From: a virus
Reading direction: 5' to 3' (one strand)
DNA length: 20,025 bases
Virus record (IMG/VR): IMGVR_UViG_3300033145_002632
Span: 1-20,025 of that record
Shown here one piece after another: positions 4,205-19,230 of the stretch (its first letter is position 1; each line of letters opens with the position of its first letter). The position numbers were made by a program, and so were the translations under genes. The notes below the pieces were generated by a model, which saw only the letters and a list, made by a program, of their open reading frames with translations, searched no databases and had not been told where the DNA came from.

Positions 4205-4307
4205 AGCGCGGCGGTGGCAGGACAGTAACAATCCTGAAAATGATTGTCGTAGGTTCCCATTCTGAGGCAACCGAAAAACCCACTTAGTAGAACCTGCCCG
4301 CCGTGCT
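4205..4307 (+). ncRNA. Structured RNA, tRNA-like ends (copy 1)
   Basis: Ends pair as a 10-bp helix: AGCGCGGCGG (4205-4214) with CCGCCGTGCT (4298-4307), one G-T pair. After a 3-base linker beginning TG comes a hairpin, CAGGA (4218-4222) with TCCTG (4232-4236), in the position of a tRNA D arm. Further inside, GGTTCCC (4252-4258) can pair with GGCAACC (4266-4272) across a 7-base loop with one C-C mismatch; alternatively AGGTTC can pair with GAACCT near the 3' end. The same closing helix and D-arm-like hairpin occur at 18967-19075, with paired changes that keep the helices. It fills the only sizeable gap between the clamp gene and the gene at 4326. No canonical anticodon or T arm is formed, so I do not call it a tRNA. 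Confidence 0.6.
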
Positions 4308-4325
4308 AAAGAAAAGGAGAGAAAA

Positions 4326-4664
4326 ATGAGAAGAATAACTCTTAAACAGCTTTTAAAGGCTGGGGCTTATTGTGAAGTGACTGATTCGTTCAAGGTAAGA
4401 TTTGGAAAGAGTTGTACTATACTTGAATTTATGAAATGGATAAAGGAAGTGGGTGAACTTGGTTGGTTTGGATGGTTTGTTTGCCAAGTATTAATTTCGT
4501 GCAAACCAAATATGCACTGTGAGGATTGCATAGCATATAAAGTGAAATATGTTGGCAAAAAGATGGGATATGACCCATTGTTTTCTTGGTTTAGTAAAAA
4601 TACAGCCAAAGCTGCCACTAATCGTGCTGAGCATATTATTGATAAAATAAAAAAGGAAAAATAA
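4326..4664 (+). CDS. Small phage protein of unknown function, Cys-containing
   Basis: A 112-residue protein starting after AAAAGGAGA. Its first ~35 residues (RRITLKQLLKAGAYCEVTDS) resemble the opening of a recurrent family of short phage proteins with a leucine-rich ITLxQLxxAGAC-like start followed by a 'phenylalanine-x3-FG' segment; the biochemical role of that family is not known to me. The middle holds Trp-rich WFGWFVC and a cluster of cysteines (CKPNMHCEDC) that might bind metal. The C-terminus is basic and helical. It lies between the structured RNA and the DNA polymerase and ends three bases before the polymerase start, so it is probably co-transcribed with the replisome genes. Confidence 0.6.
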   Translation: MRRITLKQLLKAGAYCEVTDSFKVRFGKSCTILEFMKWIKEVGELGWFGWFVCQVLISCKPNMHCEDCIAYKVKYVGKKMGYDPLFSWFSKNTAKAATNRAEHIIDKIKKEK

Positions 4665-4667
4665 ACA

Positions 4668-7100
4668 ATGTCTTTTTTCTTTGACCCATCTGAAATTTCT
4701 GGTAAAAAGGCAACAAAAAAATCATTTATAGTTGATCCTTGCAAAATTTGTGGATTGTTCAAAGGTTGTATTTCACCAAAAATGAAATCATATGGTGGAA
4801 ATAAAAAGCGGATATTAGCTCTTGGGGAAGCTCCCGGCAAGGATGAGGATGAGTTTATTGATAAGGAAACGAAAGAAAAGGGACGTGGTTTCGTAGGCAA
4901 ATCCGGTAGACTTCTTACCTCAATTCTTGAGGATGTTGATATTGATTTTGATAAAGACTGTACTCGTAGCAATGTTTTACAATGCAGACCCCCCGGCAAT
5001 AAATTCCTGCCTGAAAAAGTTGAATATTGTTATCAGAGATTAGAAAAACAGATACAAGAATCAAAGCCAAAATTGATTCTTTGTCTTGGTTATGAAGCAA
5101 TAAAAAGAATAGCTGAAACTTCTATATTACCAACTACAATGGAAATTTTACATGGAATAGTATTTCCATCGAGAAAATATAACTGCTGGATTTCCTGTAA
5201 TTATCATCCTGCTTATATTCTTCGTAAACCGGGAATGGAAGATATTTTATATAGAGACATTAAAAATGCTTTGAGTTATTTAGATATGCCGATTTCGGAA
5301 TCACTTTTGGAGACTGGTGAAAATATAATATTAGAAGATAAGAATGATATTATTGGATTTCTTGAATCAATAACGAATATAAAGTCTGCTGTATCATTTG
5401 ATATTGAAACTTCTAAATTATCTCCATATGATAAAGACTCAGAATTGCTATCTATAGCGTTTTCATTTGATGAGAAAATTGGATATGTTTTTCTTCTAGA
5501 ACCAGTGGATAAGGATGTTTGGAAAGCTCTTGCACATTTTCTTGAATCTAAAACTCCAAAAATTTGCCATAGTGGCAAATTTGATGATTCCTGGGGTAAA
5601 GTCTTTTTCAAGAATTACATGAACAATCGGTACTGGGATACACAGTTGGCGGCTCATATACTCGATGAGCACCCTGATACCAAGTCTCTTGGATTCCAAA
5701 CATTCCTTACCACTGGTGATGAATATAAAGAAATGGTTAATCGGAAAAATATGAAAGAAGTATCAAAATCAATATTATGTAAATATAATTCATTAGATGC
5801 GAGATATACTTATTGTTTGTATAAAAAGCAAATAAAGCAGATTATAAAAGAAAACCTGTCTGATCCGAATAAATTTTTATTAGCTGGCGACAAGGCTCTT
5901 GCTCAATTGGAATTTAATGGAATAAAGATAGATAGGGATGCTTTTTATTACTATAAAGATGAAGTGGTTAATAAAAAATATAAAGAAGCAGTTCAATCTC
6001 TGCGGTCATCAGAATTAAATTCAATCTTTGCAAAAAAGAAAGGAAGGGATATAGATTTAAATTCACTGGTAGATTTAAAGTTCTTGTTTTTTAGGATGAT
6101 TAATGTTAAACCAGCATCTATAACAGAAAAAGGAAATCTACAACTAAATGAAGCATTTTTCAACCAATATTCTGATGACCCAGAGATTGGTGAATTCTGT
6201 TTAAATATGCTCGATTACAAATCAGTATTGAAAATGAAAACCACTTATATCAAAGCAATTGAAAATCATGTTGATGGCAATTGGTTTCTTCATCCAACTT
6301 ACAATTTATGGTCTACAGTTACTTATCGTTCAAGTTGTGATTCACCTAATTTACAAAACGTACCTAAACGGGATGAGGGGCAGGCAGAATTTAGAAAAGT
6401 ATTTATACCACGATTTGATTATTTACTTGATGCCGACCATAAAGGTTCTGAGGTAGTTATTCAAGCATTATTGGCAGATGATAGAACTTTAATTGAACAA
6501 TTGAAAAATGGGCTTGATCCACATAGATTCTGGGCAAGTAAATTATACCAAAAACCCGAAGAAAAAATTACAAAGAAATTACGATACAATGCAAAGAATG
6601 GTTTTATTTTCCCACTTATATATGGTAGTTACTATGTTACTATCGCAAAAAATTTAGGTTTGCCCGAAGATCATGTTAAAGAATGTGAGGATGAATTCTT
6701 TGACATGTATTGTGGGATTAATCAATATCAGCAAGAAAAGGTCCGGGAATATAATAAAAAGGGATATATAACAACACCACTTGGCTTTAGGCGACACGCT
6801 CCATTGTCGAGAAATCAAATTGTAAATTATCCAATTCAGTCTGTCTCGTTTCATTATTTACTTGATACATTAATAAAATTAGTTTCTTTGGTTATGCCGG
6901 ATTTAAAGATGAAAAGTTTACCTGTATTGCAAATACATGATAATGTTGTTTTTGATGTGGTGGAAAAGGAATTAGATGATTTGATTAATATTATTAATGA
7001 ATTAACTGAATATAAACCAAATTTCAAATTTGTAAAAGATTTAGCGATATCAGTAGAATATAATATAGGTAGAAATTGGTATGAAATGGAGGAATTATAA
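4668..7100 (+). CDS. Uracil-DNA glycosylase / 3'-5' exonuclease / family A DNA polymerase fusion
   Basis: An 810-residue replicative polymerase in three parts. Residues 25-205 match family 4 uracil-DNA glycosylase: four cysteines placed to bind an Fe-S cluster (C25, C28, C106, C121), GEAPGKDED (53-61), GFVGKSGRLL (74-83), CRPPGN (106-111) and NYHPAYILR (H180). Residues ~240-400 are a DnaQ-like proofreading exonuclease, with DIET (D245, E247), HSGKFDD, and the YNSLDARYT motif. The rest is a Pol I-type polymerase: motif A DADHKGSE (D588), O-helix R639-x3-K643-x2-F646 ending in YGS, and motif C IHDN (757-759). Motif C has Asn where Pol I has Glu (HDE), and motif A is less typical than DYSQIE, but both catalytic aspartates are present. 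There is no 5'-3' exonuclease domain. The stop overlaps the clamp-loader start. Confidence 0.9.
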   Translation: MSFFFDPSEISGKKATKKSFIVDPCKICGLFKGCISPKMKSYGGNKKRILALGEAPGKDEDEFIDKETKEKGRGFVGKSGRLLTSILEDVDIDFDKDCTRSNVLQCRPPGNKFLPEKVEYCYQRLEKQIQESKPKLILCLGYEAIKRIAETSILPTTMEILHGIVFPSRKYNCWISCNYHPAYILRKPGMEDILYRDIKNALSYLDMPISESLLETGENIILEDKNDIIGFLESITNIKSAVSFDIETSKLSPYDKDSELLSIAFSFDEKIGYVFLLEPVDKDVWKALAHFLESKTPKICHSGKFDDSWGKVFFKNYMNNRYWDTQLAAHILDEHPDTKSLGFQTFLTTGDEYKEMVNRKNMKEVSKSILCKYNSLDARYTYCLYKKQIKQIIKENLSDPNKFLLAGDKALAQLEFNGIKIDRDAFYYYKDEVVNKKYKEAVQSLRSSELNSIFAKKKGRDIDLNSLVDLKFLFFRMINVKPASITEKGNLQLNEAFFNQYSDDPEIGEFCLNMLDYKSVLKMKTTYIKAIENHVDGNWFLHPTYNLWSTVTYRSSCDSPNLQNVPKRDEGQAEFRKVFIPRFDYLLDADHKGSEVVIQALLADDRTLIEQLKNGLDPHRFWASKLYQKPEEKITKKLRYNAKNGFIFPLIYGSYYVTIAKNLGLPEDHVKECEDEFFDMYCGINQYQQEKVREYNKKGYITTPLGFRRHAPLSRNQIVNYPIQSVSFHYLLDTLIKLVSLVMPDLKMKSLPVLQIHDNVVFDVVEKELDDLINIINELTEYKPNFKFVKDLAISVEYNIGRNWYEMEEL

Positions 7101-8041
7101 TGTCGCTATATCATAAATTACGACCACAATCTTTAAATGGTTTATTTGGAAATAAAGAAACAGTAAAGAGTCTCAAAAAACTTCTTAAAATGGATAATCG
7201 TCCCCATACTTATTTATTTACAGGTGAAAGAGGAACCGGGAAAACTACTACAGCAAGAATATTAGTAAAGGAATTAGGTTGTTCTGATATTGATTTGGAA
7301 GAAATGAATGGAAGTGATAATAGAGGAATTGATGATGCCCGCCATGCTATTATGCTTGCTCATACATCTCCTATTGGTGGTAAATGTCGAGTTATTATAT
7401 ACGATGAATGCCATAGATGCACACGCGAGTGTCAGGATGCTTTATTGAAAGTGCTTGAGGATACTCCAAAAACAACCTATTTCATTTTATGCTCCACCAA
7501 TCCTGAAAAAATATTGAAAACAGTGAGAAGCAGATGTACAACTTATCATTTTGAATTATTATCAGAAGAATTAATGCAGGAGTTTCTTGAAAGTACTTTG
7601 GAAAATCTTGATAGAGATTTAGATGATACCGTATTTTTTGGATTGATTGATTGCACAGAAGGCAGCCCACGTGATGCTTTGGTATTGCTTGAACAGATTC
7701 TTTTGCTTGATAATAAAGATGAGCAAATCAAATTATTAAAGAAAACACAAATCGAACATGAGGGAATAGAAATTTGTCGTTTGTTACTGAGAGGGGGTAA
7801 TTGGAAAAGTATTGTGGAAATTTACAAAGGGATACAAGGAACTGATGCTGAAACCATACGGAGGTTAATTATTGGTTATATGAAAGTTGTAATGTTGAAG
7901 GAAACAGATAAGAAAAGGCTAAATAGAGCTTATAATGTAATAAGAATATTAGAAAAAAATACTTTTGATGGTGGAGAAGCTTTACTTCTTCGTATGCTTT
8001 ATGAATGTTCTGAGTTGTATGAATCCTGTTACCGGAGGTAA
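7100..8041 (+). CDS. Clamp loader ATPase, RFC/DnaX-like
   Basis: A 313-residue AAA+ protein that should open the sliding clamp and load it at primer ends. Motifs are Walker A GERGTGKT (42-49), Walker B IIYDECH (99-105), sensor 1 FILCSTN (128-134) and the SRC arginine-finger motif (144-146). Between Walker A and B it has EEMNGSDNRGIDDAR (67-81), the pattern of eukaryotic/archaeal RFC and T4 gp44, and it lacks the zinc-binding Cys cluster of bacterial DnaX, although the clamp upstream is of bacterial beta type. Translation is coupled to the polymerase: the start shares one base with its stop, and GGAGGAATTATA precedes it. Only one clamp-loader gene is seen, so the complex may be a homo-oligomer or use a partner encoded elsewhere. 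Confidence 0.88.
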   Translation: MSLYHKLRPQSLNGLFGNKETVKSLKKLLKMDNRPHTYLFTGERGTGKTTTARILVKELGCSDIDLEEMNGSDNRGIDDARHAIMLAHTSPIGGKCRVIIYDECHRCTRECQDALLKVLEDTPKTTYFILCSTNPEKILKTVRSRCTTYHFELLSEELMQEFLESTLENLDRDLDDTVFFGLIDCTEGSPRDALVLLEQILLLDNKDEQIKLLKKTQIEHEGIEICRLLLRGGNWKSIVEIYKGIQGTDAETIRRLIIGYMKVVMLKETDKKRLNRAYNVIRILEKNTFDGGEALLLRMLYECSELYESCYRR

Positions 8042-8046
8042 TTTAA

Positions 8047-9057
8047 ATGAGTAAAATTACAAATGAGATGCGACGGAAAGCCTTATTGCAAGATTACAAA
8101 AACAAAGGTAAGAGTGATAGGAGTTGGTATTTGATTGGAAGTGATGAGTTGGAAGAAAAATATCAATTAAAGAGCTTCACCCCTGATGAGGGGCATATAT
8201 TCCTTTCAATAATTGAAAGGTGGGAATCTGAAAAGTTCTTTCTTGAATTATTTGTACATTACAATATTGGTTCAGATAACCATGCCTTTCTTTGTGTCGA
8301 TAAGATGTTTGGTGAACCCTGTCCTATTTGTGCTTTAAGGAACGAATTGAAAACAGCAGGAGAGCCTGAGGATATTTATAATTTATACCGCTATACCAAG
8401 CGGTATCTTATGTGGGTTGTTAATGCTGAAACCGCGCGGACAATAAAAGAGGGTACTCATTTATATGATGCTCCAACAACGGTTAAAAATGGTATTCTTG
8501 ATATTTGCGTTGATCCACGAAATGATAAAATTATTGACCCATCGGATCAAGCAGAAATGGTAAATGTTGTTTTCAAAAGAGTTGGTAAAAAGGGTTATCA
8601 AAATACAAAGTATACTGGGTTTAAATTGGAAGATCGTGAAGAAGAGTTATCAGATGAGTTTTTTGATGTACCCCCAATGGAAGATCTTCTCATTAAGCCC
8701 GATATTGCGGAAATGAAAAAGTGTGTTGGATTACCTGTTAGGGACACCCAATATGATGATGAGGAAGAGGCTGAGGAAACAACACGACCAAAAAGGACAA
8801 AAGGGGTTTCGAAATTTAGGCGACACAAAATTGATAAGGAGGAGGAGCAAGAAGAAACTAAAAGAAAAACTAAACGATTCCGAAACAGAAAAGAAGAAGA
8901 AACTTCGGATGATCCCATAGGGGAGATTTTTGATCCTGAAAAAATTGATGATGAAGAAAATGGGGATGATGATTTCCCTTTTGATGAAGAGGAAGAAAAG
9001 AAAAAGATACTTGATAGGACTCGTAAAAGAATTAACCGATCAAGAAGAGGGGAGTAA
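8047..9057 (+). CDS. Single-stranded DNA-binding protein, T4 gp32-like
   Basis: A 336-residue protein that should coat single-stranded DNA at the fork and during recombination. The key evidence is a zinc-binding pattern H71-x11-C83-x8-C92-x2-C95 (HYNIG...FLC...PCPIC), very close to H-x12-C-x9-C-x2-C in T4 gp32. The N-terminus (1-30) is basic and helical, like the gp32 cooperativity domain. After about residue 235 comes a long highly charged tail, alternating basic and acidic (FDPEKIDDEENGDDDFPF), finishing with a basic patch; acidic tails of this kind contact other replication proteins, but the basic end is unusual. A GGAGG site lies just before the ATG. It is placed between the clamp loader and the recombination genes, as expected for its role in both. 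Confidence 0.85.
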   Translation: MSKITNEMRRKALLQDYKNKGKSDRSWYLIGSDELEEKYQLKSFTPDEGHIFLSIIERWESEKFFLELFVHYNIGSDNHAFLCVDKMFGEPCPICALRNELKTAGEPEDIYNLYRYTKRYLMWVVNAETARTIKEGTHLYDAPTTVKNGILDICVDPRNDKIIDPSDQAEMVNVVFKRVGKKGYQNTKYTGFKLEDREEELSDEFFDVPPMEDLLIKPDIAEMKKCVGLPVRDTQYDDEEEAEETTRPKRTKGVSKFRRHKIDKEEEQEETKRKTKRFRNRKEEETSDDPIGEIFDPEKIDDEENGDDDFPFDEEEEKKKILDRTRKRINRSRRGE

Positions 9058-9061
9058 TATT

Positions 9062-9601
9062 ATGGATTCAAGGATTAAAGAAATAAAGGAACTTCTCGTT
9101 GAATCGTTAGTAGCATACGATGTGATGGTTACTGATTTAACAGAGGATTTAAGAATTAATATCTATGATTTGGAAGAGGATTGTGCAGGGCATTCAAATT
9201 GTTTTTTGCAAGCGGCTTTATTTTTATCGGAGGTTGCTCTTTTGGCAAGCAAATCTGATTTGCTTTTGAAAGAATTAAGGGCGGAAATTGCTATTGAGGT
9301 TCGTTCAAATCCTGAAAAGTATGGGATTCAGAAAATTACGGAGGCACAGATTACAGAAGCCGTGGATACTGCTAAATATGTGAAGGAAATATTGAGGTTG
9401 CGTTCCGAATGCCAATCTTTGAAAGCGAATGCGGATGCTTTTGTACAAGCATTTGAACATCGCCGGTCGATGTTGAATAATGAAGTACAGTTATATCTTT
9501 CAAAATTATCCGAGCCAAATGCTACTATTAAAAGAAAAGATACTTTGGCAAAAATAACGGAAAAGAAAGAACAGAAACGAACAAAAAGGATGGGTGTTTG
9601 A
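9062..9601 (+). CDS. Helical protein, possible UvsY-like recombination mediator
   Basis: A 179-residue, mostly alpha-helical protein with a basic C-terminal tail (KEKKEQKRTKR-type composition). It has an early Asp/Glu-rich helix, then helices around 50-80 (FLQAALFLSEVALLASKSDL), an ITEAQITEAV segment near 105, and a final helix with FEHRRSMLNNEV. This ordering, and its place between the gp32-like protein and RecA, recall UvsY, which loads UvsX on gp32-coated DNA in T4. Similarity is by pattern and context only, so the function is a hypothesis. I start at 9062, 10-15 bases after GAGGGGAG; the reading frame is open further upstream inside the previous gene but without a start site of that quality. 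The stop codon is TGA. Confidence 0.6.
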   Translation: MDSRIKEIKELLVESLVAYDVMVTDLTEDLRINIYDLEEDCAGHSNCFLQAALFLSEVALLASKSDLLLKELRAEIAIEVRSNPEKYGIQKITEAQITEAVDTAKYVKEILRLRSECQSLKANADAFVQAFEHRRSMLNNEVQLYLSKLSEPNATIKRKDTLAKITEKKEQKRTKRMGV

Positions 9602-9612
9602 AGAAATTAACT

Positions 9613-9629
9613 AAAACCCATCCCAATTG
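9613..9629 (+). repeat. Partial copy of the recA start region
   Basis: The 17 bases AAAACCCATCCCAATTG match 10213-10229 (AAAACCCATCCCAACTG), inside the first codons of the RecA gene, at 16 of 17 positions and exactly 600 bases away. The preceding bases also share GxAATTAA. The beta-helix gene lies between the two copies. The same copy can pair with GGATGGGT (9588-9595) to form an 8-bp hairpin overlapping the end of the previous gene, which is not followed by a T-run. Confidence 0.4.
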
Positions 9630-9664
9630 AAGATGCTATCTCGTTTTAGAAAGAGGTAAAAGCA

Positions 9665-10183
9665 ATGGAAAAGAAATATGAACTGCTTGTTGATGATATG
9701 ATATATATTAATGGCATTATTTTATATCGAATACGAGCCTTGAAATCTTTTAAATATATCAAATCAGGGGATCTTGGTGGTTATGTAGAAAAAGAAAAAA
9801 ATCTTTCACATGACGGCAATGCATGGGTTTTTGATAGCGCAAGAGTTTATGGCGATGCAAGAGTTTATGGCAATGCAGAGATTTCTGGCAATGCATGGAT
9901 TTTTGGTAACACAAGGGTTTGTGGTAATGCAAAGGTTTCCGGTGATGCAGAGATTTTCGGCAATGCAAAGGTTTCTGGCGAAGCAGAGATTTTCGATGCA
10001 GAAATTTATGGTAATGCAGAGATTTCTGGCAACGCATGGGTTTTTGGTAATGCAAAGGTTTATGGTACTGCAAAAGTTTCCGACAACGCAGACATTTTTA
10101 ACAAAGCAGAGATTTATGGCAATGCAGAGATTTCCGGTGATGTGGAGATTTCCAGCAACACTGTGGTTTCTGGGAACGAGTGA
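9665..10183 (+). CDS. Beta-helix repeat protein (YdcK-like hexapeptide-type repeats)
   Basis: A 172-residue protein. Residues 1-45 (including YRIRALKSFKYIKSGDLGGY) match the leader found in YdcK-type and related phage proteins. The rest is about 20 short repeats of the form V/I-x-G-N/D-A (for example VYGNAEISGNAWIFGN), which fold as a left-handed or related parallel beta-helix. Such proteins lack a defined enzymatic role; some resemble acyltransferase beta-helices but no catalytic histidine is evident here. The DNA shows the underlying ~18-base tandem repeats, which can expand or shrink by slippage. It sits, unusually, between the UvsY-like gene and RecA, and a partial copy of the recA start precedes it, so it may be an insertion into the recombination operon. 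AGAGG precedes its ATG; the stop is 13 bases before recA. Confidence 0.8.
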   Translation: MEKKYELLVDDMIYINGIILYRIRALKSFKYIKSGDLGGYVEKEKNLSHDGNAWVFDSARVYGDARVYGNAEISGNAWIFGNTRVCGNAKVSGDAEIFGNAKVSGEAEIFDAEIYGNAEISGNAWVFGNAKVYGTAKVSDNADIFNKAEIYGNAEISGDVEISSNTVVSGNE

Positions 10184-10196
10184 GAAGGGTTATTAT

Positions 10197-11204: not shown

Positions 11205-11205
11205 A

Positions 11206-11934: not shown

Positions 11935-11949
11935 TAAAGGATTCGTATA

Positions 11950-12897: not shown

Positions 12898-13831
12898 ACT
12901 GCTTCTTATATCTGATTTGCATTTGAGGGATACTACCCCACAGGGTAGAATTGATGATTTTCAAGAAGCAATGTGGGATAAATTGGGATATGTTTTTTAT
13001 GCCGCTAAGGATAAAGGAGTGGATTGTATTTTACAAGCGGGTGATTTTTTTGACAAACCAAAACCTTCTTATAGCCTTGTTACAAGATTAATATCATTCT
13101 GCCAATGCGATCTTGAACAACCCTCTATACCAATTCTTTGTGTCATGGGGCAGCATGATATATACATGAGACATTCTGATATAAAGGGAACTGCTCTTGG
13201 ATTATTGGATATGGTTGGGGAAATTGCTCTTGTATCAGAGAGTTCCCCATATAAAGTAGTGTCCCATCATCGTGGAAAAGAATGTTGGATTTATGGTGTT
13301 AATTATGGAGGCGATCCTAATTTTACGACCAAGAAAAATAAAGTGTCAATTTTAATTATTCATGCTGATATTGGGGACAAGCCCTTATATCCTGGACATG
13401 AATATACAGATGCAGAGGTATTTCTCAAAAATCATTCGAACTTTGACATTATACTTTGTGGAGATTATCATTATCCATTTCATATCGAGAAGAATGGAAA
13501 GCATATAGTCAATACTGGCTGTATGCTGAGAATGACAAGGGATAAAAGAGATATGAACAGAAAACCCCATTTTTATATTGTAAACACAGATACAAATAAA
13601 TGGGAAAAATATGAAATACCACATGAACCTATTGATAAGGTATTTTCAGATAAAAAAGAATTATTGGAAAAACCTATAATTGCTAATGAAGGAGATTTGA
13701 TTAGGTTTATCCAACAGTTGAAACAAAAAGGTAAATCCGGAATACATTACTTAGATGTGCTCGATGCTTATTGTTCTAAGCATGAAATATCGGAAGAAAT
13801 AAAAGAATTGATTCGGGAGGTATTAATATGA
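12890..13831 (+). CDS. Mre11/SbcD-type metallophosphoesterase nuclease
   Basis: A 313-residue calcineurin-like phosphoesterase, the nuclease partner of Rad50/SbcC (T4 gp47). Metal-binding motifs are SDLHL (D9, H11), AGDFFD (D52), GQHD (87-90), an IIHAD histidine, and GDYHYPF, in the order seen in Mre11/SbcD. The third motif has Gln where most family members have Asn (GNHD), a change I would check because that Asn binds metal. The C-terminal ~50 residues look like the helical capping or Rad50-binding region. It lies between the two parts of the split Rad50 gene, overlapping both neighbours by a few bases, which ties translation of the complex together. It should process DNA ends and possibly degrade host or stalled-fork DNA. 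Confidence 0.88.
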   Translation: MAKLLLISDLHLRDTTPQGRIDDFQEAMWDKLGYVFYAAKDKGVDCILQAGDFFDKPKPSYSLVTRLISFCQCDLEQPSIPILCVMGQHDIYMRHSDIKGTALGLLDMVGEIALVSESSPYKVVSHHRGKECWIYGVNYGGDPNFTTKKNKVSILIIHADIGDKPLYPGHEYTDAEVFLKNHSNFDIILCGDYHYPFHIEKNGKHIVNTGCMLRMTRDKRDMNRKPHFYIVNTDTNKWEKYEIPHEPIDKVFSDKKELLEKPIIANEGDLIRFIQQLKQKGKSGIHYLDVLDAYCSKHEISEEIKELIREVLI

Positions 13832-14073
13832 GTTCAGTTGAGGAATATCAGGAACTGCTTGATGATGTGAATGATTTCAGGGAAACAATCGCAAGAAATT
13901 CTGGAAAAAAGGAAGCATTGATGGCAGAATTAGAAAAGAAAAGTGGATTCAAAACCGTTAAAAAAGCAGAAAAATGGTTGGTATCTATAGAAGATAAATG
14001 TAATGAACTTCGAGAGCAATTACAGGATGAACTGGCTCTTGCCGAAGAAAAAAGGGACTCTTTAATATGTTAA
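13828..14073 (+). CDS. Coiled-coil protein, likely return arm of split Rad50
   Basis: An 81-residue, highly charged helical protein with heptad-like spacing of Leu/Met/Ile over nearly its whole length and no globular domain. It starts at an ATGA overlap with the nuclease gene, after GGGAGG, and overlaps the next gene by seven bases. Its position between the zinc-hook half and the Walker B half fits the descending coiled-coil arm of a Rad50-like protein. A short WLVSIED segment breaks the coiled coil. It lacks its own CxxC zinc hook. The overlap with the next gene is in the -1 frame and lies just after a run of six A; a slip there would fuse the two proteins, but a separate start with its own AAAGGG site is the simpler reading. 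Confidence 0.65.
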   Translation: MSSVEEYQELLDDVNDFRETIARNSGKKEALMAELEKKSGFKTVKKAEKWLVSIEDKCNELREQLQDELALAEEKRDSLIC

Positions 14074-14687
14074 TATCTGAATTGAAATCATTTATTGATA
14101 TTACAGAAAAAGAAGTATTTGATTGTAGAAAATCTGTTGCTTATTTGCAAGACAATAAAGAAAAACAGATTAAGAAAATAACTAATTTTGAAACAGCCAT
14201 TCAAGTTCTCGCTGATGTTTTGGCAATAACCCAAAATGAAATTGTGCAATATATTGAAAATGTGGTTACAACAGCCCTTCGGTATATTTATGGTGATGGT
14301 TATTTATTTAAAATTGATTACCATTTGAAAAGAGGACAACCAGAAGTTGAATTGTATGTTATGAAAAACGATTTAAGATATGATTTTGGTTATAGTTGTG
14401 GGGTAGGTGTTCTCAATATTGTATCCTTCAGCTTAAGGTGCGCTTGTTGGTCTCTAATAGAACCACCCACCAGACCATTGATGATTGTAGATGAGCCTTT
14501 TTCAAGTATTTCCGGCAGAGACCAATTAGAAAAAGCAGAATTAATGGTTAAAAAATTATCTGATATGCTCAATATTCAAATAATATTAATAAGCGGAAAG
14601 GAGCCTATTACTGATTATGCTAATAAGACGTTTATGGTGGAAATGGAAAATGGGATTAGTATTGTAAATGAAAGGGGAGTAAAATGA
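14067..14687 (+). CDS. Rad50/SbcC-type ATPase, C-terminal half
   Basis: A 206-residue protein with the second half of the ABC-type ATPase. Residues 1-60 are coiled coil. SCGVGVLNIVSFSLR (110-124) occupies the place of the ABC signature and its following helix, although the usual SGGE is not kept. LMIVDEPFSSIS (138-149) is Walker B plus D-loop, with D142 and E143, and ILISGKEP follows where the H-loop lies, without the usual histidine. Combined with the Walker A half at 11950-12897 it would complete one ATPase head. It has no Walker A of its own. AAAGGG precedes the ATG; the stop overlaps the start of the next gene. Confidence 0.85.
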   Translation: MLISELKSFIDITEKEVFDCRKSVAYLQDNKEKQIKKITNFETAIQVLADVLAITQNEIVQYIENVVTTALRYIYGDGYLFKIDYHLKRGQPEVELYVMKNDLRYDFGYSCGVGVLNIVSFSLRCACWSLIEPPTRPLMIVDEPFSSISGRDQLEKAELMVKKLSDMLNIQIILISGKEPITDYANKTFMVEMENGISIVNERGVK

Positions 14688-15130
14688 GAAATGTAAAGTT
14701 CAATTTTGGTGAAATCGTTATAGTTAGAGCAAAAATGATAAAACAGGTTACCACAAGAGGGGAAAATTATTATAGGGCACTTGTGAAAAAGGAGCTTCCA
14801 AGTGGTACTATTGGTAAAATATCCGGATTGAAATACTTTTATGTGGGGGAAATTAGAGACGACGATAATTTTGAAGGTTATGAGTATAATAGTGGTATAA
14901 GACATTTAATGGTAGAAAGTTCTGCACTTCTATATGAAATCAAAGTTGGTTGGCTGAATAAACCTATCTATGCTCGGGAAAGTGATTTGGAAGCATTTTC
15001 TAATCAATCTGTTTATAAATTTCCTATGTTGCATTTTTATAATCCATATATTATGTCAGAAAAAGACAGAAAATTACTTTCGAAGTGGTCAAAAGACTTT
15101 CCGAGAGATTCTAAGGGTAGATTTATATAG
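14684..15130 (+). CDS. Unknown protein, end of replication block
   Basis: I do not recognise this 148-residue protein. The first ~60 residues are beta-rich (VKFNFGEIVIVRAKMIKQV), consistent with a small barrel fold. Many Tyr/Phe residues follow, and the C-terminus is basic and polar, ending in a KDFPRDSKGRF segment. It has no obvious catalytic motif, signal peptide or membrane segment. The ATG overlaps the stop of the Rad50 C-terminal half (ATGA) and follows AAGGGGAG, so it is co-expressed with the recombination genes and could be an accessory factor. It is the last gene before a 128-base gap with tandem repeats. Confidence 0.6.
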   Translation: MRNVKFNFGEIVIVRAKMIKQVTTRGENYYRALVKKELPSGTIGKISGLKYFYVGEIRDDDNFEGYEYNSGIRHLMVESSALLYEIKVGWLNKPIYARESDLEAFSNQSVYKFPMLHFYNPYIMSEKDRKLLSKWSKDFPRDSKGRFI

Positions 15131-15153
15131 GTATAAGGGAGCTATGTAAAAAT

Positions 15154-15225
15154 GAGCCACATCCGATGAGAAACCCAATAATTAAGAGCGAGCCATTAAC
15201 AATGAGAAACCCAGAGAGTTTGAGC
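15154..15225 (+). repeat. Two tandem 36-base imperfect repeats
   Basis: Units 15154-15189 and 15190-15225 are adjacent, equal in length, and share GAGCCA, ATGAGAAACCCA and a final GAGC, with differing bases between. They fill the gap between the genes at 14684 and 15259. The shared block contains ATG, giving a possible 22-codon frame (15166-15234) that is preceded by and overlaps (ATGA) a 5-codon frame at 15152-15169 with AAGGGAG upstream. Either a leader-peptide arrangement or a pair of protein or RNA binding sites could explain it. Nothing else is seen in this 128-base gap. Confidence 0.6.
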
Positions 15226-15258
15226 GTACTTTAAACCAAACACAAAGAGGAAAAAGAC

Positions 15259-15726
15259 ATGTTTATATTTCTTGACAAGGAGCCCTACAGAGCTGATAAA
15301 GATACACTTTGTTATGGTGTTTTCTTAAAACTTTCTGATGGCAGCTATCGTTCTCCATTTGCAAAAGCTCCTCTCATAACAGGAAAGCAAAAGGCAAAAA
15401 ACCTCTTTCATTCTGATAAAGGAAGTGGTCATAAATTTTTTAAACAACCGGGTTTTCACAGGTTTTTAAGTTCTACTGCCGCAGCAATACTTATGTATGA
15501 TCTTGAATTGCAATCACCTCAGGCTGAGTACCATATTATAAAAAGTATAATACCAAAAAATACAATTATTAATGGTGGTTACACCTATTTTTTAAAGTGT
15601 CGTTTAAAAGCAGTTTTTGTAAAAACTTTGATCCAAACAGATGAAGAAATAGAAGTAGATGGTTTTGCTAAAGAAACAATCAATGATTTGTGTCTTTATA
15701 ATGGAATAAAGAAAGGAAAAGATTAA
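15259..15726 (+). CDS. Unknown phage protein with GFHRF segment
   Basis: A 155-residue soluble protein without motifs that I can tie to an enzyme. It has an early YGVFLKLSDGSYRSPF segment, then GFHRFLSSTAAAI near residue 70 and IIKSIIPKNTII near 93. A 'GFH-x-F ... A' segment followed by a hydrophobic strand and a small beta region is a pattern I associate with recurrent short phage proteins of unknown function; I hold that loosely. AAAGAGGA precedes the ATG. Its stop shares a base with the next start (TAATG), so it begins the operon of small, partly membrane, proteins. Confidence 0.6.
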   Translation: MFIFLDKEPYRADKDTLCYGVFLKLSDGSYRSPFAKAPLITGKQKAKNLFHSDKGSGHKFFKQPGFHRFLSSTAAAILMYDLELQSPQAEYHIIKSIIPKNTIINGGYTYFLKCRLKAVFVKTLIQTDEEIEVDGFAKETINDLCLYNGIKKGKD

Positions 15727-15932
15727 TGATAGAACTGATCCCTGATTATATTTATGCTTTTGCTTTGCCTCTTATGATAATTTCAGGCAGCTTTATTCTC
15801 TTTGTTGCTTATGGTCTTTATCATCAGGCTATAAAAGACTGGTATGCTGATTGTAATTTCTTTGATTTTATATTGTCTTATGTATTTGGAGAAGAGTATA
15901 CTGAATCCGATGATAATGAACAATGGGGTTAG
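15726..15932 (+). CDS. Small membrane protein
   Basis: A 68-residue protein with one clear hydrophobic segment (about 8-33, including FALPLMIISGSFILFVAYGL) and a weaker one near 45-55. The C-terminal ~15 residues are acidic and polar. It overlaps the previous stop by one base and lies directly before two more small membrane proteins, so the three probably act in the host envelope or are made together. The function is unknown; holin-like or superinfection-exclusion roles are possible but nothing specific supports them. Confidence 0.6.
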   Translation: MIELIPDYIYAFALPLMIISGSFILFVAYGLYHQAIKDWYADCNFFDFILSYVFGEEYTESDDNEQWG

Positions 15933-15935
15933 TTA

Positions 15936-16160
15936 ATGATAACTTTGTCATATATTATTATTCTCATATCTTGTGTGGGTATTTACTATGTTAATTGGAA
16001 ACACAATAAAGTTGGGTTTTTGTTTCATGCTGTTTCCGCCCTTTTATGGGCTATTTATGATTGGAAACTTGGAGCATGTGTCCAAACAGCAACTATGGTA
16101 TTTAGTTCTGTCACATCTATAGTAGGTTATTTAAAATGGAGGCACGATGGATTGGGTTAA
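15936..16160 (+). CDS. Small membrane protein, faintly PnuC-like
   Basis: A 74-residue protein with three hydrophobic segments (about 3-18, 26-42 and 47-65). The pattern of an Asn-Lys turn, then ALLWAIYDWKLGA, then a final VGYLKWRHDG is reminiscent of a piece of PnuC-type nicotinamide riboside transporters, which have aromatic and Trp residues at similar points. At 74 residues it is far shorter than PnuC (~230), so it would have to work as an oligomer or is unrelated. Its ribosome site is weak (GGGGTTAG). The next gene starts inside its last codons. Confidence 0.5.
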   Translation: MITLSYIIILISCVGIYYVNWKHNKVGFLFHAVSALLWAIYDWKLGACVQTATMVFSSVTSIVGYLKWRHDGLG

Positions 16161-16302
16161 AAGAGGACTTACTACTATTCGTATGTTGTGTTATTTAGCT
16201 TTTGCGATTGTAATGATTGTTATTACTGGGCTGTGGCTGATAGCGATGCTTTTTTGGGATGTTGAATACTTTACGGAGTATTATAAATATGATACTCAAT
16301 AA
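16147..16302 (+). CDS. Very small single-span membrane protein
   Basis: A 51-residue protein starting 7 bases after TGGAGG, overlapping the end of the previous gene. A basic N-terminus (about 1-12) is followed by one strong hydrophobic segment (about 13-37, with YLAFAIVMIVITGLWLIAML) and a short acidic, Tyr-rich tail. The strong ribosome site and the clean membrane-protein design support it as a real gene in spite of its size. It is directly followed by a predicted promoter, so it is probably the last gene of this small operon. Confidence 0.6.
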   Translation: MDWVKRGLTTIRMLCYLAFAIVMIVITGLWLIAMLFWDVEYFTEYYKYDTQ

Positions 16303-16306
16303 GTTC

Positions 16307-16334
16307 TTGCTTTTTTTAAAAAATATATTATATT
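16307..16334 (+). promoter_or_regulatory. Promoter with the same hexamers as the divergent promoter
   Basis: TTGCTT (16307-16312) and TATATT (16329-16334) are separated by 16 bases. Both hexamers are identical to those at 2052-2103, and the -35 box is again preceded by C and followed by a T-run. It starts right after the stop of the gene at 16147 and lies 34 bases upstream of the gene at 16368, which it would serve. There is no mirror copy on the other strand here. Confidence 0.55.
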
Positions 16335-16367
16335 GTAATTATAGACGCTAACAGGAAGGAATAATTA

Positions 16368-16568
16368 ATGCCAATTATTTTCAAAGGTTTTGCTGTTTGC
16401 TCTGTTTGTGGTAAAGAATTTCATGCGACTACTGTTGAAATGGGAAGGCTAATAAAAAGTACTCCAATCGTAAAAGCTGCTAAAAAAGAAGGGTGGTTAT
16501 TTGAAAGAAATATGTATCATAAATTAACCGGGGTTTATTGTCCTGAACATGCCAAAGGGAGGAAATGA
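16368..16568 (+). CDS. Small probable zinc-binding protein
   Basis: A 66-residue basic protein. CSVCGKEFH (11-19) and CPEH (58-61) together supply a C-x2-C ... C-x2-H pattern that could bind one zinc ion. Such short zinc-ribbon-like proteins are common in phage accessory regions and often contact nucleic acid or host proteins, but no target is evident. AGGAAGGA precedes the ATG. It is the first gene after the predicted promoter at 16307-16334 and overlaps the next gene by four bases. Confidence 0.6.
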   Translation: MPIIFKGFAVCSVCGKEFHATTVEMGRLIKSTPIVKAAKKEGWLFERNMYHKLTGVYCPEHAKGRK

Positions 16569-16765
16569 AAATGCAAGTCAAAATTGGGGCTGTAATAATG
16601 AAGAATCTTCCTATTTTGGAAGTCAAATTATCTGATGAACCTTGTTTGACATTGTATATTTCGAAGCTACAGGATGATTCGGTTTACAGAGGACTCGTTA
16701 TTTTTGATAAATCAGAAACAAAGGAGATTATGAAAAAAATAAAAGAATTTGGAGGGGGAAAATGA
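16565..16765 (+). CDS. Small protein of unknown function
   Basis: A 66-residue protein. It appears to be a small alpha/beta domain: strands around VKIGAVIM, LEVKLSD and CLTLYISKL, then a lysine-rich helix ending in a glycine-rich tail. No motif is recognised. The start overlaps the previous stop; an ATG two codons later (16571) lies at a better distance from GGGAGG and may be the true start. The end overlaps the next gene by four bases. Confidence 0.5.
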   Translation: MKMQVKIGAVIMKNLPILEVKLSDEPCLTLYISKLQDDSVYRGLVIFDKSETKEIMKKIKEFGGGK

Positions 16766-17088
16766 TTATTATAAACGAAAAATGGTTCATTCATAGTATT
16801 CTACAACGTTGGGATGCACAATATTCCCATTTATACCATACAAAGGAATTGCTTCCCAATAAGAAAACAAAATTGCAAATTAGGAAGGAATTGCAGTTAT
16901 TGGATTTAAAGGTGGCAACTATAGATGATATAAGTTGTATTATTGGTAACGATTCATGGATTAAAGAATACTGTTCTGAATGCGAAACATGGTCGAGTAA
17001 CGGAATTATAGTTGGCGAATCTATTTTTTTATGTGCAAAGTGCATAGGAAAAATTATTGCTATGGTTAACAAAGGGGTATTAAAATGA
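16762..17088 (+). CDS. Small zinc-ribbon-like protein
   Basis: A 108-residue protein. The C-terminal 40 residues contain CSEC (about 74-77) and CAKC (about 93-96) separated by a short beta-like segment (SSNGIIVGESIF), which is the two-knuckle layout of a zinc ribbon. The N-terminal part is helical with aromatic and basic residues. It may bind nucleic acid or a host protein. GGAGGGGG precedes the ATG, and both ends overlap neighbouring genes by four bases, so it is translated in a coupled set with them. Confidence 0.55.
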   Translation: MIIINEKWFIHSILQRWDAQYSHLYHTKELLPNKKTKLQIRKELQLLDLKVATIDDISCIIGNDSWIKEYCSECETWSSNGIIVGESIFLCAKCIGKIIAMVNKGVLK

Positions 17089-17528
17089 TTATTTATTGGG
17101 GAATGCTTGTACTTTTTTCTTTATTTATTGGTTATCACGAAGGAATGATAAATGTTAAATTCAGGGACACAATGCACAGCGGTGATTTTCTTGACGGAGT
17201 ACGGGGCCATAAATACCACAAATCGATATATCATAAAATACGTGTATTGCGGGATTTGTCTGGGATGTATTTTGGTTACCAACTCTTATCTGTCCAGCCT
17301 AATTTAATGGCAATAATTGCAAGTTTATTTATTGTTTGGGAGATTACAGAAGTTTTTTATGCTGTGGCAAGATGTGGTTCTGTATTTATGTTTGATTTAG
17401 GTTTACCTTATGAAAACGTCGCCTTTCTTGATATATGGGATTTGAGACTTCGTGGGGGATCGGTTTATATAATTCATTTATTGAGGATTATGTTTGCTTT
17501 TATTTTTCTTTTAATGTCAGTATTATAA
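17085..17528 (+). CDS. Integral membrane protein
   Basis: A 147-residue protein with hydrophobic segments at about 1-17, 70-95 and 125-147. The polar part between the first two (about 20-65) is rich in His, Lys and Arg, including a GHKYHKSIYHK run. It is preceded by AAAGGGG and overlaps the zinc-ribbon gene by four bases. Nothing identifies a transporter or holin family. Phage membrane proteins in such accessory regions may alter the host envelope or block superinfection, which is a guess here. Confidence 0.55.
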   Translation: MIIYWGMLVLFSLFIGYHEGMINVKFRDTMHSGDFLDGVRGHKYHKSIYHKIRVLRDLSGMYFGYQLLSVQPNLMAIIASLFIVWEITEVFYAVARCGSVFMFDLGLPYENVAFLDIWDLRLRGGSVYIIHLLRIMFAFIFLLMSVL

Positions 17529-17542
17529 GGAGAAATTGAACC

Positions 17543-17785
17543 ATGAAAACAATGTCCAGAGAAGCATATCTCGAAGTTCTTGAGAAATCAATCGAGCATC
17601 ACGAAGATGGAGTGGGAAGAACAGAAGAAAATTACTTGAATTTCCCTATTGGCAGTAATCATTGTGCTCTCTGCCAGCTCCACAGAAAGGAAAATGGTAA
17701 GATTGACTGCTATCGTCCTGAAAAATGTTTTCTCAGAGATGATAGCGATAGTTGTTGTTCTGATTGGGAGAAGGCAGCAGAGTGA
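17543..17785 (+). CDS. Cys-rich small phage protein; frame continues beyond its TGA
   Basis: An 80-residue protein after TAAGGAGA. It begins with a helix containing LEKSIEHHEDGV and has cysteines at HCALC, DCYRPEKC and SCCSDW, the layout of a family of short phage proteins that start with an 'LExSIxHWE' helix, carry a Cys cluster, then a Trp and another helix. The stop is TGA at 17783-17785. The same frame continues open for 285 more codons, and the first residues after the TGA (RAHKDFQMFHDGEVSLL) look like the missing last helix of that family. Either one nonsense change (for example TGG to TGA) split an originally longer gene, or the two are read together at some level. Confidence 0.55.
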   Translation: MKTMSREAYLEVLEKSIEHHEDGVGRTEENYLNFPIGSNHCALCQLHRKENGKIDCYRPEKCFLRDDSDSCCSDWEKAAE

Positions 17786-17806
17786 AGGGCACATAAAGAC
17801 TTTCAA

Positions 17807-18643
17807 ATGTTTCACGATGGCGAAGTTTCCCTTCTTACCAGATTGAAGGTTGAAAGGGATAGGGTAAAGGCAATACCGGAGAAGCCCAAAACCAAGACAG
17901 CAACCAAAATAACCTACTGGAATAAGTATGGTGTAAAGCGCGACACCTGCTTCAGCGGAAAACCAGATATGGATAGGGTTGTAAGGGAATTTATGGATGA
18001 GGATGGTTGTCTTGCTGTAATGATTAAGTGTACGGAGGAACTCGCTGGTATGGCGGGCGCTTTTCTCACAAAGCACTTCTCCGTCTTTATACCAGATCTA
18101 TTACCCCTATATAGCTGGGAATATAAAGGCTATAAAGCATGGTTCGGGCTTGAGGAAACAGACCTCCAAACCGCTGTAGATGAGTACCTTGCCAAACAGC
18201 CCAAAGTTGAATCGCCCCACAAGTTTGTTGAAGCAGCGGGAAAATATACCCCCTGTGAGAAGATGCCCGCAGAATATCACGTCGGGGAATTGGTTTATGT
18301 TCCTGACCTTGACAAGTGCCTTGTGATAAAGGAAATTAAGGAAGATAGGCTTGTGTTTGGTAACGGAAATTGGATTTTCAGAGTCCATGGTCGCCCCGCC
18401 ACTCTCGATGAGATTGCTGAGTTTTACACCCGTAAAGTTGGTGGAGTGTTGGTAAGAGCTTGTTATCTTTTCAATAACGGGGTACAGATAAAGACATCAG
18501 ATAATATAGCAAGAAATTTTTATTATGATATACATAAACTTATTATTTCTTTTATTACCAACAGCAATGTTCCTATTATGCCGTGGAGCGAGGTTGAGAG
18601 GTTGTATGATGGGGAGATGCCAGCACCGGAGAAAGGAGAATGA
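17807..18643 (+). CDS. Unknown protein, possible downstream part of the gene at 17543
   Basis: A 278-residue protein that I do not recognise. The N-terminal ~50 residues are basic (EKPKTKTATK). Two alpha/beta-looking regions follow (about 40-130 and 150-278), the latter starting with HVGELVYVPDLDKCLVIKEI, an SH3-like beta pattern. The ATG at 17807 has no good ribosome site nearby, whereas the frame is open back to the TGA that ends the previous gene, seven codons upstream. This supports the idea that the two ORFs were one gene or are linked by readthrough. Base composition at 17.5-18.6 kb is visibly richer in G and C than the replication genes, which hints at separate acquisition. The final residues (EMPAPEKGE) overlap a strong ribosome site. 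Confidence 0.5.
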   Translation: MFHDGEVSLLTRLKVERDRVKAIPEKPKTKTATKITYWNKYGVKRDTCFSGKPDMDRVVREFMDEDGCLAVMIKCTEELAGMAGAFLTKHFSVFIPDLLPLYSWEYKGYKAWFGLEETDLQTAVDEYLAKQPKVESPHKFVEAAGKYTPCEKMPAEYHVGELVYVPDLDKCLVIKEIKEDRLVFGNGNWIFRVHGRPATLDEIAEFYTRKVGGVLVRACYLFNNGVQIKTSDNIARNFYYDIHKLIISFITNSNVPIMPWSEVERLYDGEMPAPEKGE

Positions 18644-18711
18644 AGATGAAGAAGCGTGATAGGGCATTAAAACGGATAGGTAGATTTATAATATTTGAAA
18701 GAAGTCAATAA
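18640..18711 (+). CDS. Possible very small basic protein
   Basis: A 23-codon frame overlapping the previous stop (ATGA), preceded by AAAGGAG. A second ATG at 18646 is better spaced from that site and would give 21 residues. The peptide is strongly basic at first, then contains a short hydrophobic patch (RFIIFERSQ). The ribosome site is very good, but the size makes chance hard to exclude; there is no recognisable family. Confidence 0.3.
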   Translation: MKMKKRDRALKRIGRFIIFERSQ

Positions 18712-18733
18712 AAAGGGATGAAAGGAGCAAGTG

Positions 18734-18964
18734 ATGGCAAAGGTAATTGAACTTATTGCTGTCGATAATGGTGATCCAAGTGTTGGTATATCTGGCAGTT
18801 TTGACCGAATCACCGTTATCTATCACGATAGAGACAAACTCGAAGAAGAAATAATCGAATCCATAAAAGATTTCTTTGGCGAAGAAGGATTCTGTGTCGA
18901 TAGGGAGCAGTATGAGCAGAATTTAGTACATGAAGCAATACAGGATGCTATGAATCAGTGTTAA
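18734..18964 (+). CDS. Small acidic protein of unknown function
   Basis: A 76-residue acidic protein with an early beta strand (VIELIAVDNG), a second strand (ITVIYHD), then a long helix from about 35 to 50 and a final helix. No motif is recognised. The ATG at 18734 follows AAAGGAG by six bases; a GTG one codon earlier is possible but less likely. It is the last gene before the pair of structured RNAs, its stop codon lying two bases before the first of them. Confidence 0.5.
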   Translation: MAKVIELIAVDNGDPSVGISGSFDRITVIYHDRDKLEEEIIESIKDFFGEEGFCVDREQYEQNLVHEAIQDAMNQC

Positions 18965-18966
18965 AT

Positions 18967-19075
18967 AGTGCGGCGGTGACGGATAGGCATTTCCGTAAGG
19001 GTTCACGGTGGACATGTCGCCCTTCTGACACGACGTCAATCAGTATTCAGGGTTCGATTCCCTGCCCGCCGCGCT
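18967..19075 (+). ncRNA. tRNA-derived structured RNA with oversized anticodon loop (copy 2)
   Basis: Closing helix: AGTGCGGCGG (18967-18976) with CCGCCGCGCT (19066-19075), 10 bp with one T-G pair. tRNA hallmarks follow: T then G after the helix, a D-arm-like hairpin ACGGA/TCCGT (18979-18983 with 18992-18996) whose loop holds GG, and a near-perfect T arm, CAGGG-TTCGATT-CCCTG (19048-19064). An anticodon-like stem AAGGG/CCCTT (18997-19001 with 19020-19024) closes an 18-base loop instead of 7. A class II-like variable hairpin TGAC/GTCA lies at 19026-19038. One extra C separates the T arm from the acceptor strand, and no CCA is encoded. The outer helix and D-arm hairpin match 4205-4307 with paired changes. 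It may be a degenerate tRNA or a tRNA mimic; I do not think it decodes normally. Confidence 0.65.
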
Positions 19076-19080
19076 GAAAG

Positions 19081-19230
19081 AAAGGGTGCTGTGTTGTTGA
19101 TAGAACAGCTGATATAAGCTAAAAACCGTGCTGTCGCGACTGTGCGGGGAAATAGCTGAAAGTGTACCGGCCGGCACTCGCCCACCTATGGGCGTATCAG
19201 TACAAGTACGAGGCTTGTCAGCACCTTTTT
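19081..19230 (+). ncRNA. Larger structured RNA closed by a terminator-like stem
   Basis: The ends pair over 11 bp (19081-19091 with 19219-19229, one G-T pair), and the 3' side runs into TTTTT (19226-19230), so the RNA also works as an intrinsic-terminator-like end. Inside are AGCTA (19117-19121) with TAGCT (19153-19157) enclosing CCGTGC/GTGCGG (19126-19131 with 19142-19147), AGTG/CACT (19161-19164 with 19175-19178), CGCCCA/TGGGCG with a 4-base loop (19179-19194), and ACAAG-TACGAGG-CTTGT (19202-19218). The last hairpin directly abuts the 7-base CAGCACC strand, the geometry of a tRNA T arm and acceptor, and TG follows the 5' strand. Its loop keeps T, C, G, A of a T loop but not TTC. It is only five bases from the previous RNA. 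I recognise no known class. Confidence 0.6.

Follow-up and report, generated by a model that had tools for sequence, protein, structure and literature searches.

A stretch of viral DNA of 20,025 nt, here called the window, contains three structured RNAs with parts resembling those of tRNA, and one of them, RNA2, is probably a non-decoding, tRNA-derived RNA of a type that recurs among phages. Phage T4 RNAs C and D, which are already known, show that phages produce non-coding RNAs with tRNA-like parts. The RNAs described here belong to a recurring set of tRNA-ended phage RNAs with variable cores. The initial annotation had described two copies rather than three RNAs. Direct reading of the letters confirmed its observation of paired tRNA-like RNAs, including positions and lengths (4205–4307, 103 bases; 18967–19075, 109 bases from closing-helix end to closing-helix end), and its interpretation is partly supported. 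The features are as follows.

4205–4307, + strand: RNA1 (copy 1), 103 bases, with tRNA-like ends
4205–4214, + strand: RNA1 5' strand of the closing (extended acceptor) helix, AGCGCGGCGG, pairing probability 0.72–1.0
4298–4307, + strand: RNA1 closing helix, 3' strand CCGCCGTGCT, from direct reading and pairing probabilities
4218–4236, + strand: RNA1 D-arm-like hairpin CAGGA/TCCTG, uncertain (probability about 0.26, rival helices)
4249–4297, + strand: RNA1 helix at the T-arm position, GTAGGTTC/GAACCTGC around CTGAG/CTTAG, from the fold
18966–19076, + strand: RNA2 (copy 2), an elongated tRNA-like RNA
18967–18976, + strand: RNA2 extended acceptor, 5' strand AGTGCGGCGG
18977–18978, + strand: RNA2 equivalents of U8 and G9
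18979–18996, + strand: RNA2 D arm, ACGGA TAGGCATT TCCGT, with GG within the loop, probability at least 0.93
18997–19024, + strand: RNA2 anticodon-arm position, stem AAGGG/CCCTT with a loop of 18 bases (versus 7)
19025–19043, + strand: RNA2 variable-arm region, either TGAC/GTCA (probability 0.8–0.94) or CTGA/TCAG
19048–19064, + strand: RNA2 canonical T arm, CAGGG TTCGATT CCCTG
19066–19075, + strand: RNA2 extended acceptor, 3' strand CCGCCGCGCT
19085–19225, + strand: RNA3, a third tRNA-like RNA of 141 bases, starting 8 bases after RNA2
19202–19218, + strand: RNA3 T arm, ACAAG TACGAGG CTTGT, abutting the acceptor 3' strand

RNA2 agrees with canonical tRNA in its 7-bp acceptor, U8 and T arm with a TTCRA loop, and the real T arm previously attributed to it is indeed present, with C19065 separating its stem from the acceptor 3' strand. 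A blind scan for an acceptor, U8 and a T arm gave RNA2 the top score in 1.25 Mb, and nothing in the reversed and complemented control sequences came close to that score. RNA3 runs from a 7-bp acceptor (GGTGCTG/CAGCACC) through U8 G9, a D-like hairpin and a multibranched core to a near-canonical T arm (five of six T-arm features) and TTTTT. The GC content of the RNAs is about 51–58%, against 33.6% for the window. They fold better than their shuffles (z -3.0 to -4.8 across the RNAs; -4.2 for RNA1 and -3.0 for RNA2).

We rejected a canonical tRNA as the identity of these RNAs. Neither ARAGORN nor the Rfam tRNA model recognised them, and there is no 7-base anticodon loop with U33. The absence of a normal anticodon loop, already pointed out in the initial annotation, is evident in the 18-base loop of RNA2, and no such loop is identifiable in RNA1 or RNA3. 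The Rfam library as a whole left the window RNAs unrecognised, and RNA2 fell far under the cut-off (14.1 bits versus 47 for tRNA-Sec). A tmRNA was not found either, with no match to RF00023 and no ARAGORN tmRNA with a tag peptide.

RNA1 and RNA2 are both closed by the 10-bp helix reported earlier (AGCGCGGCGG...CCGCCGTGCT and AGTGCGGCGG...CCGCCGCGCT) and end in the same 3' sequence, CTGCCCGCCG. The third and fourth pairs from the outside preserve pairing as had been claimed (C-G versus U-G, G-U versus G-C), but they are weak evidence because both are one-sided G-U changes. The hairpin said to follow a TG does so in RNA2 (ACGGA/TCCGT), whereas in RNA1 (CAGGA/TCCTG) it follows TGG. The double pair exchanges within it are real in the letters, but they come from only two sequences, one of which has an uncertain hairpin. 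A D arm common to both copies is not safe, as GGCAGG/CCTGCC and AACAATC/GATTGTC compete with the RNA1 hairpin, which therefore reaches a probability of only about 0.26. Scores for helix plus hairpin were 39.5 and 40.0, whereas 100 local-composition shuffles gave 37.5 at most, and full-length local alignment of the two RNAs scored 52, with no more than 47.5 in any of 2000 shuffles. Alignment detected no relatedness between their interiors (p = 0.49). The proposal of a conserved, tRNA-derived family stands for a structured pair, for tRNA derivation in copy 2 and for homologous ends elsewhere, but not for the interiors. The GTAGGTTC/GAACCTGC helix of RNA1, as modelled, may resemble a T stem whose loop is expanded. 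Given its weak D hairpin and missing T arm, RNA1 could be either a diverged relative or another kind of structure with the same ends.

We searched for relatives with an exact 20-mer covering the RNA2 T arm and acceptor 3' strand. It matched seven viral contigs, which represent five distinct elements; each has GGCGG upstream and continues to pair further outward. The closing helix has 8 bp in L408, L409 and L412 (CAGGGCGG/CCGCCCTG), 11 bp in L410 (GATGCTGGCGG/CCGCCAGCATC) and 7 bp with an additional bulged extension in L411, and the acceptor is 8–11 bp long in most members. Cellular genomes (257 Gb) gave only five matches to the 20-mer, and one of these is the L408 element, which lies in a prophage of a Brevibacillus genome. 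The prophage of Brevibacillus sp. SYP-B805 carries L419/L429. RNAs of this type occur in several unrelated phages and prophages, and ARAGORN missed the relatives as well. A recurring set that is missed by ARAGORN and Rfam, is present in a Brevibacillus prophage and has constant ends around variable cores would make the role of tRNA-like phage RNAs testable in laboratory strains.

Because GGTTCGATTCCCTGCCCGCC was part of the search pattern, conservation of this block among the matches is by construction, and free evidence comes only from the 5' strand and the outer pairs. In the covariation test, which used five sequences, the closing helix scored 0.464, versus 0.149 for shuffled data (0/500) and at most 0.125 for slid controls. 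Five of six pairs beyond the search pattern changed on both sides. A lack of homologues with covarying helices had been named as what would speak against the initial annotation; for the closing helix, the outcome favours it. L408, L409 and L412 have both ends in common, with cores between them that cannot be aligned (p 0.24 to 0.62). The core of a fourth relative, L428, is again its own. As judged from these alignments, a constant tRNA shell surrounds a hypervariable core. RNA2 shares the GGCGG 5' strand, the extended acceptor, the T arm TTCGATT and the 3' TGC-CCGCC of the recurring type. RNA1 has its ends without the T arm, and RNA3, with a different acceptor, is not claimed as a member. The D arm of several relatives (GGCGGTGGCGGAAAGG..AGACGC) resembles that of tRNA-Leu.

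RNA1 occupies the gap between the stop of a clamp-like gene at 4199 and the ribosome-binding site of the next gene. RNA1, RNA3, L410, L411 and L207 are each followed, after a few bases, by a ribosome-binding site or start codon, and RNA2 lies upstream of RNA3, not of a gene. The neighbours of the RNAs are replication and recombination genes, and the same shell precedes different genes in different phages.

As the best explanation, we give about even chances to the joint reading that these are non-decoding, tRNA-derived phage RNAs with a processing role in their operons, the role being held loosely. The acceptor/T-arm half of a tRNA is kept, clearly in RNA2 and RNA3 and in diverged form in RNA1, with the D arm kept in RNA2, and in place of the anticodon and variable region each member has a different core. 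The RNAs would be transcribed inside early replication operons, where the tRNA-like top half could be read by tRNA enzymes such as RNase P, RNase Z and pseudouridine or methyl enzymes. Such recognition might free a stable RNA and set the 5' end of the downstream mRNA; the elements would therefore serve primarily as processing or stability punctuation in the operon. The freed RNA could have a second role in trans as a tRNA mimic. The processing role taken by itself is tentative. The RNAs have no CCA end, substrates of RNase P and RNase Z do not usually have an acceptor of 8–11 bp, and RNA1 has no T arm and a weak D hairpin.

The intact tRNA-like elbow and T arm of RNA2 would also suit trans-acting decoys, in which a stable mimic of tRNA keeps host tRNA-targeting enzymes or defence nucleases occupied while the core diversifies in an arms race; RNase P, the CCA enzyme and tRNA-targeting defence, named in the initial annotation, are candidate targets. 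Lacking a normal anticodon, such decoys would be useless to the ribosome and could not be cleaved at the usual site. Hypervariable cores between matching ends, folds that beat their shuffles and presence in phage contigs and a prophage are consistent with this possible but rather improbable reading; no defence link was seen in the window, RNA1 has no T arm, and the tight position relative to ribosome-binding sites suits a role in cis. We are similarly doubtful of its broader form, a recurring, undescribed phage RNA class in which a constant tRNA shell scaffolds a fast-changing core and which would counter host tRNA-targeting systems as a decoy or effector that diversifies. The same proximity to ribosome-binding sites could indicate unexcised 5'UTR structures that borrowed the tRNA shape and act only in cis on translation of the next gene, with the two competing RNA1 folds serving as a switch. 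This is unlikely, as RNA2 precedes another RNA, one shell stands before different genes in different phages, and Rfam gave no riboswitch match.

A tRNA gene with an unusual small intron or insertion, removed to give a working tRNA, has precedents in the 'enigmatic introns' of Lak megaphage tRNAs (PMC6784885) and in L174 (9152–9309), which reads as a tRNA split by about 84 bases between acceptor and D arm with UAACUU repeated. With introns allowed, ARAGORN calls RNA2 Val(CAC) with an 11-base insert, but at this low threshold the program made 56 calls in the window. If 9–11 bases are excised from the loop of RNA2, the variable region that remains is long and unlike that of tRNA-Val, the extended acceptor and missing CCA persist, and no evident single excision yields a tRNA from RNA1 or RNA3, which makes this explanation quite unlikely. 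Least credible, and very improbable, are functionless, decaying tRNA genes. Pseudogenes would account for the lack of a decoding anticodon and of the RNA1 T arm, but closing-helix covariation, better-than-shuffle folds and repeated constant ends with changing cores are ill-suited to neutral decay.

The covariance model of copies 1 and 2, the check proposed by the initial annotation, found nothing else in 85 sources, among them 80 replication-gene relatives and four T4-type loci. Among the matches listed for both-ends patterns, those read by eye or script were chance-like except the window and mostly in GC-rich sequence; for the pattern CTGCCCGCCGYGCTRAA, read by script, matches other than the window likewise look like chance, mostly in GC-rich sequence. 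BLAST searches of 50,697 phage records with RNA1, RNA2/RNA3 and the RNAs of L412 and L419 returned no match. Intergenic gaps inspected in relatives (scanned at a GC of 50% or less) held mostly simple hairpins or coding-like sequence. Single-protein searches with the polymerase and a 278-aa protein revealed no close relatives, the nearest polymerase found being at 36%.

The closest analogues are T4 rnaC (species 1, 139 bases) and rnaD (species 2, 119 bases), the function of which is stated as unknown (PMC3014915, PMC9697503). They lie in tandem 6 bases apart with the short one first, as do RNA2 and RNA3 at 8 bases, and rnaC combines a long replaced core with a 3'-terminal canonical T arm. Unlike the window RNAs, rnaC and rnaD belong to a tRNA cluster and count as late RNAs, and rnaC has only three end pairs plus mismatches and lacks U8. 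We rejected membership of the window RNAs in rnaC, as a covariance model from six phages recovers T4-like copies and misses the window, L174 and L207. Lak tRNAs are likewise phage tRNA genes lengthened by an inserted stretch, but they are recognised by tRNAscan-SE and their anticodon is readable after intron removal, unlike in the window RNAs. The layout of acceptor, D arm and T arm in RNA2 resembles tRNA (RF00005) and tRNA-Sec (RF01852), from which it differs by its extended acceptor and the lack of a 7-base anticodon loop and CCA. The bacterial Y RNA YrlA (RF02553) has 90–150 bases, a 5'–3' stem and a tRNA-like module (PMC8394870), and is similar in these respects. Its arms are permuted (T arm, hairpin, D arm), whereas RNA2 and RNA3 have a D arm then a T arm, closed by the acceptor; this order and the lack of a model match ruled it out. 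No RF02553 match and no TROVE gene were found within the 20-kb record, and relatives of the window phage carry YrlA-like RNA and Ro60/TROVE genes.

The two tRNA-like RNAs reported previously, RNA1 and RNA2, were confirmed at their described places in a complete IMG/VR record of 20,025 bases (33.6% GC), and both fold better than shuffled sequences (z -4.2 and -3.0, respectively). A third, RNA3, follows in tandem.

RNA1, 4205-4307: in the gap from the stop of a clamp-like gene at 4199 to the ribosome-binding site of the following gene
RNA2, 18967-19075: starts directly after a stop codon whose last base is 18964, with RNA3 8 bases further on
RNA3, 19085-19225: 3' end TTTTT, upstream of another ribosome-binding site

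The combined closing-helix and hairpin score of RNA1 and RNA2 was unmatched by any local-composition shuffle. The D-arm hairpin that the initial annotation had them share is uncertain in RNA1, where it is only one among several competing folds (probability ~0.26) and the letters preceding it are TGG, not TG. The sequence relation between RNA1 and RNA2 is confined to their ends; the interiors alone match no better than shuffles (p 0.49). Two-ended pattern scans bear only on the matches listed, and further close copies may exist.

The expected homologues with a covarying closing helix were found. A 20-mer of RNA2, GGTTCGATTCCCTGCCCGCC, matched seven viral contigs (L408-L414) holding five distinct elements, with L412, L413 and L414 carrying one RNA. 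All five have the partner GGCGG upstream, and the helix continues outward with differing letters. The 3' inner strand was fixed by the search, so the outer pairs serve as the test. With the two ends of each RNA joined and the core omitted, covariation among five representatives was 0.464, compared to 0.149 (sd 0.075) in shuffled sequences (0/500) and at most 0.125 in slid control structures, and five of the six outer pairs changed on both sides. RNA1 and RNA2 share one genome and are not mutually independent in such a count. Across cellular genomes totalling 257 Gb, the 20-mer matched only five times: a copy of the L408 element carried by Brevibacillus sp. SYP-B805 (L419), an ordinary tRNA-Gln (L416), what appears from its sequence to be a permuted, Y RNA-like element (L418), and two without the partner helix (L415 and L417). 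Searching 39 genomes of the same order added L428, which has a stem A-U replaced by G-U, another T loop and another core; the other one-mismatch matches in these genomes were without a T arm.

Constant ends and a variable core characterize the elements of L408, L409 and L412 (119, 151 and 136 bases). Both ends are common to the three, including flanking CCTCCC and CTGC, as is a D arm that we take to be tRNA-Leu-like. Alignments of their cores (65, 96 and 82 bases) score no higher than those of shuffled sequences (p 0.24 to 0.62), and shared ends with unlike cores recur within one genome in RNA1 and RNA2. Immediately upstream of these three RNAs is a structured stretch, GCGGGCTTCG..GGAGG-6 b-CCTCC, also with ends alike and a differing middle.

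We scanned the window and 80 relatives found via the polymerase using only a 7-bp acceptor, U8 and a T arm. RNA2 ranked top, and the scan also recovered RNA3, L174:9152-9309 (158 bases), L207:18377-18564 (188 bases) and ordinary tRNAs. The reversed and complemented control gave three weaker matches, none with a full T loop. In a variant scan, RNA2 scored 35 against two control matches of at most 25.5. RNA3 is likely tRNA-like but less certain than RNA2, because it has five of six T-loop features and scores 31, compared to 29.5 for the best five-feature control. ARAGORN (standard settings) and Rfam recognized none of the window RNAs. In the 188-base RNA the D arm is of Ser/Leu type. Another tRNA-like RNA adjoins it in tandem (18281-18369; whole locus L207:18281-18564), an arrangement like that of the window, and the pair lies between genes predicted from sequence to encode a strongly acidic-tailed protein and a recombinase-like protein. 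L174:8900-9310 contains a tRNA-Thr in degenerate form and a further tRNA that appears to be interrupted by ~84 bases between acceptor and D arm, with flanking UAACUU repeats. This may represent a phage tRNA insertion. Lak megaphage tRNAs contain unexplained introns (PMC6784885).

The replication module of the window encodes a DnaB-like helicase, sliding clamp, clamp loader, gp32-like protein, UvsX/RecA, and RuvC-like, SbcC-like and SbcD-like proteins. In its family A DNA polymerase (4668-7100), the exonuclease is joined to a uracil-DNA-glycosylase-like domain at the N terminus; the polymerase-based search found no phage relatives closer than 36%. The relatives' RNAs also adjoin replication and recombination genes.

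L412: RecE, RecT and DnaD
L419: Mu Gam-like protein and DnaD
L410: Sak4-like annealing protein
L411: helicase and methyltransferase

As in the window, a ribosome-binding site follows within a few bases of the helix end in L410 and L411. Beside UvsX, a gene of 18-base repeats (9665-10183) encodes GNAxVxGNA-type hexapeptide-like repeats. AT-rich repeats (1787-2055; copies of 39 and 37 bases) between divergent genes are possibly an origin or promoter region.

The retained parts are those read by RNase P, RNase Z, T-arm modifying enzymes and the CCA enzyme, and the missing part is what the ribosome reads in a tRNA. Given this and the location among replication genes by ribosome-binding sites, we infer that the RNAs may serve first in excision from, or processing of, the operon transcript. 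A decoy acting in trans would come second. Y RNAs had to be considered seriously, because TROVE genes occur in two of the 21 records searched, and one of these has an adjacent YrlA match (42.2 bits; cut-off 69). However, the T arm precedes the D arm in YrlA but not in RNA2 or RNA3. In size and tandem order, T4 rnaD and rnaC are similar to RNA2 and RNA3, and a further likeness is the canonical T arm of rnaC. The rnaC covariance model had no match in the window; the T4 and window RNAs are therefore related in kind, not members of one family. According to a review from 2010 and a study from 2022 (PMC3014915, PMC9697503), the role of T4 RNAs C and D is unknown.

The TROVE/Ro60-like genes lie in two phage relatives, G003 (L132, 26340-27041), where the sub-cut-off YrlA-like RNA adjoins the gene, and G028 (L191, 7641-8078), where the gene follows an array of ~40 tRNA genes and similar Y-like motifs occur. 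L220:276-402 and L208 are further loci listed with this observation. The related contigs L209 and L210 have a predicted tmRNA with the tag AKNKFEKAPAFALVA.
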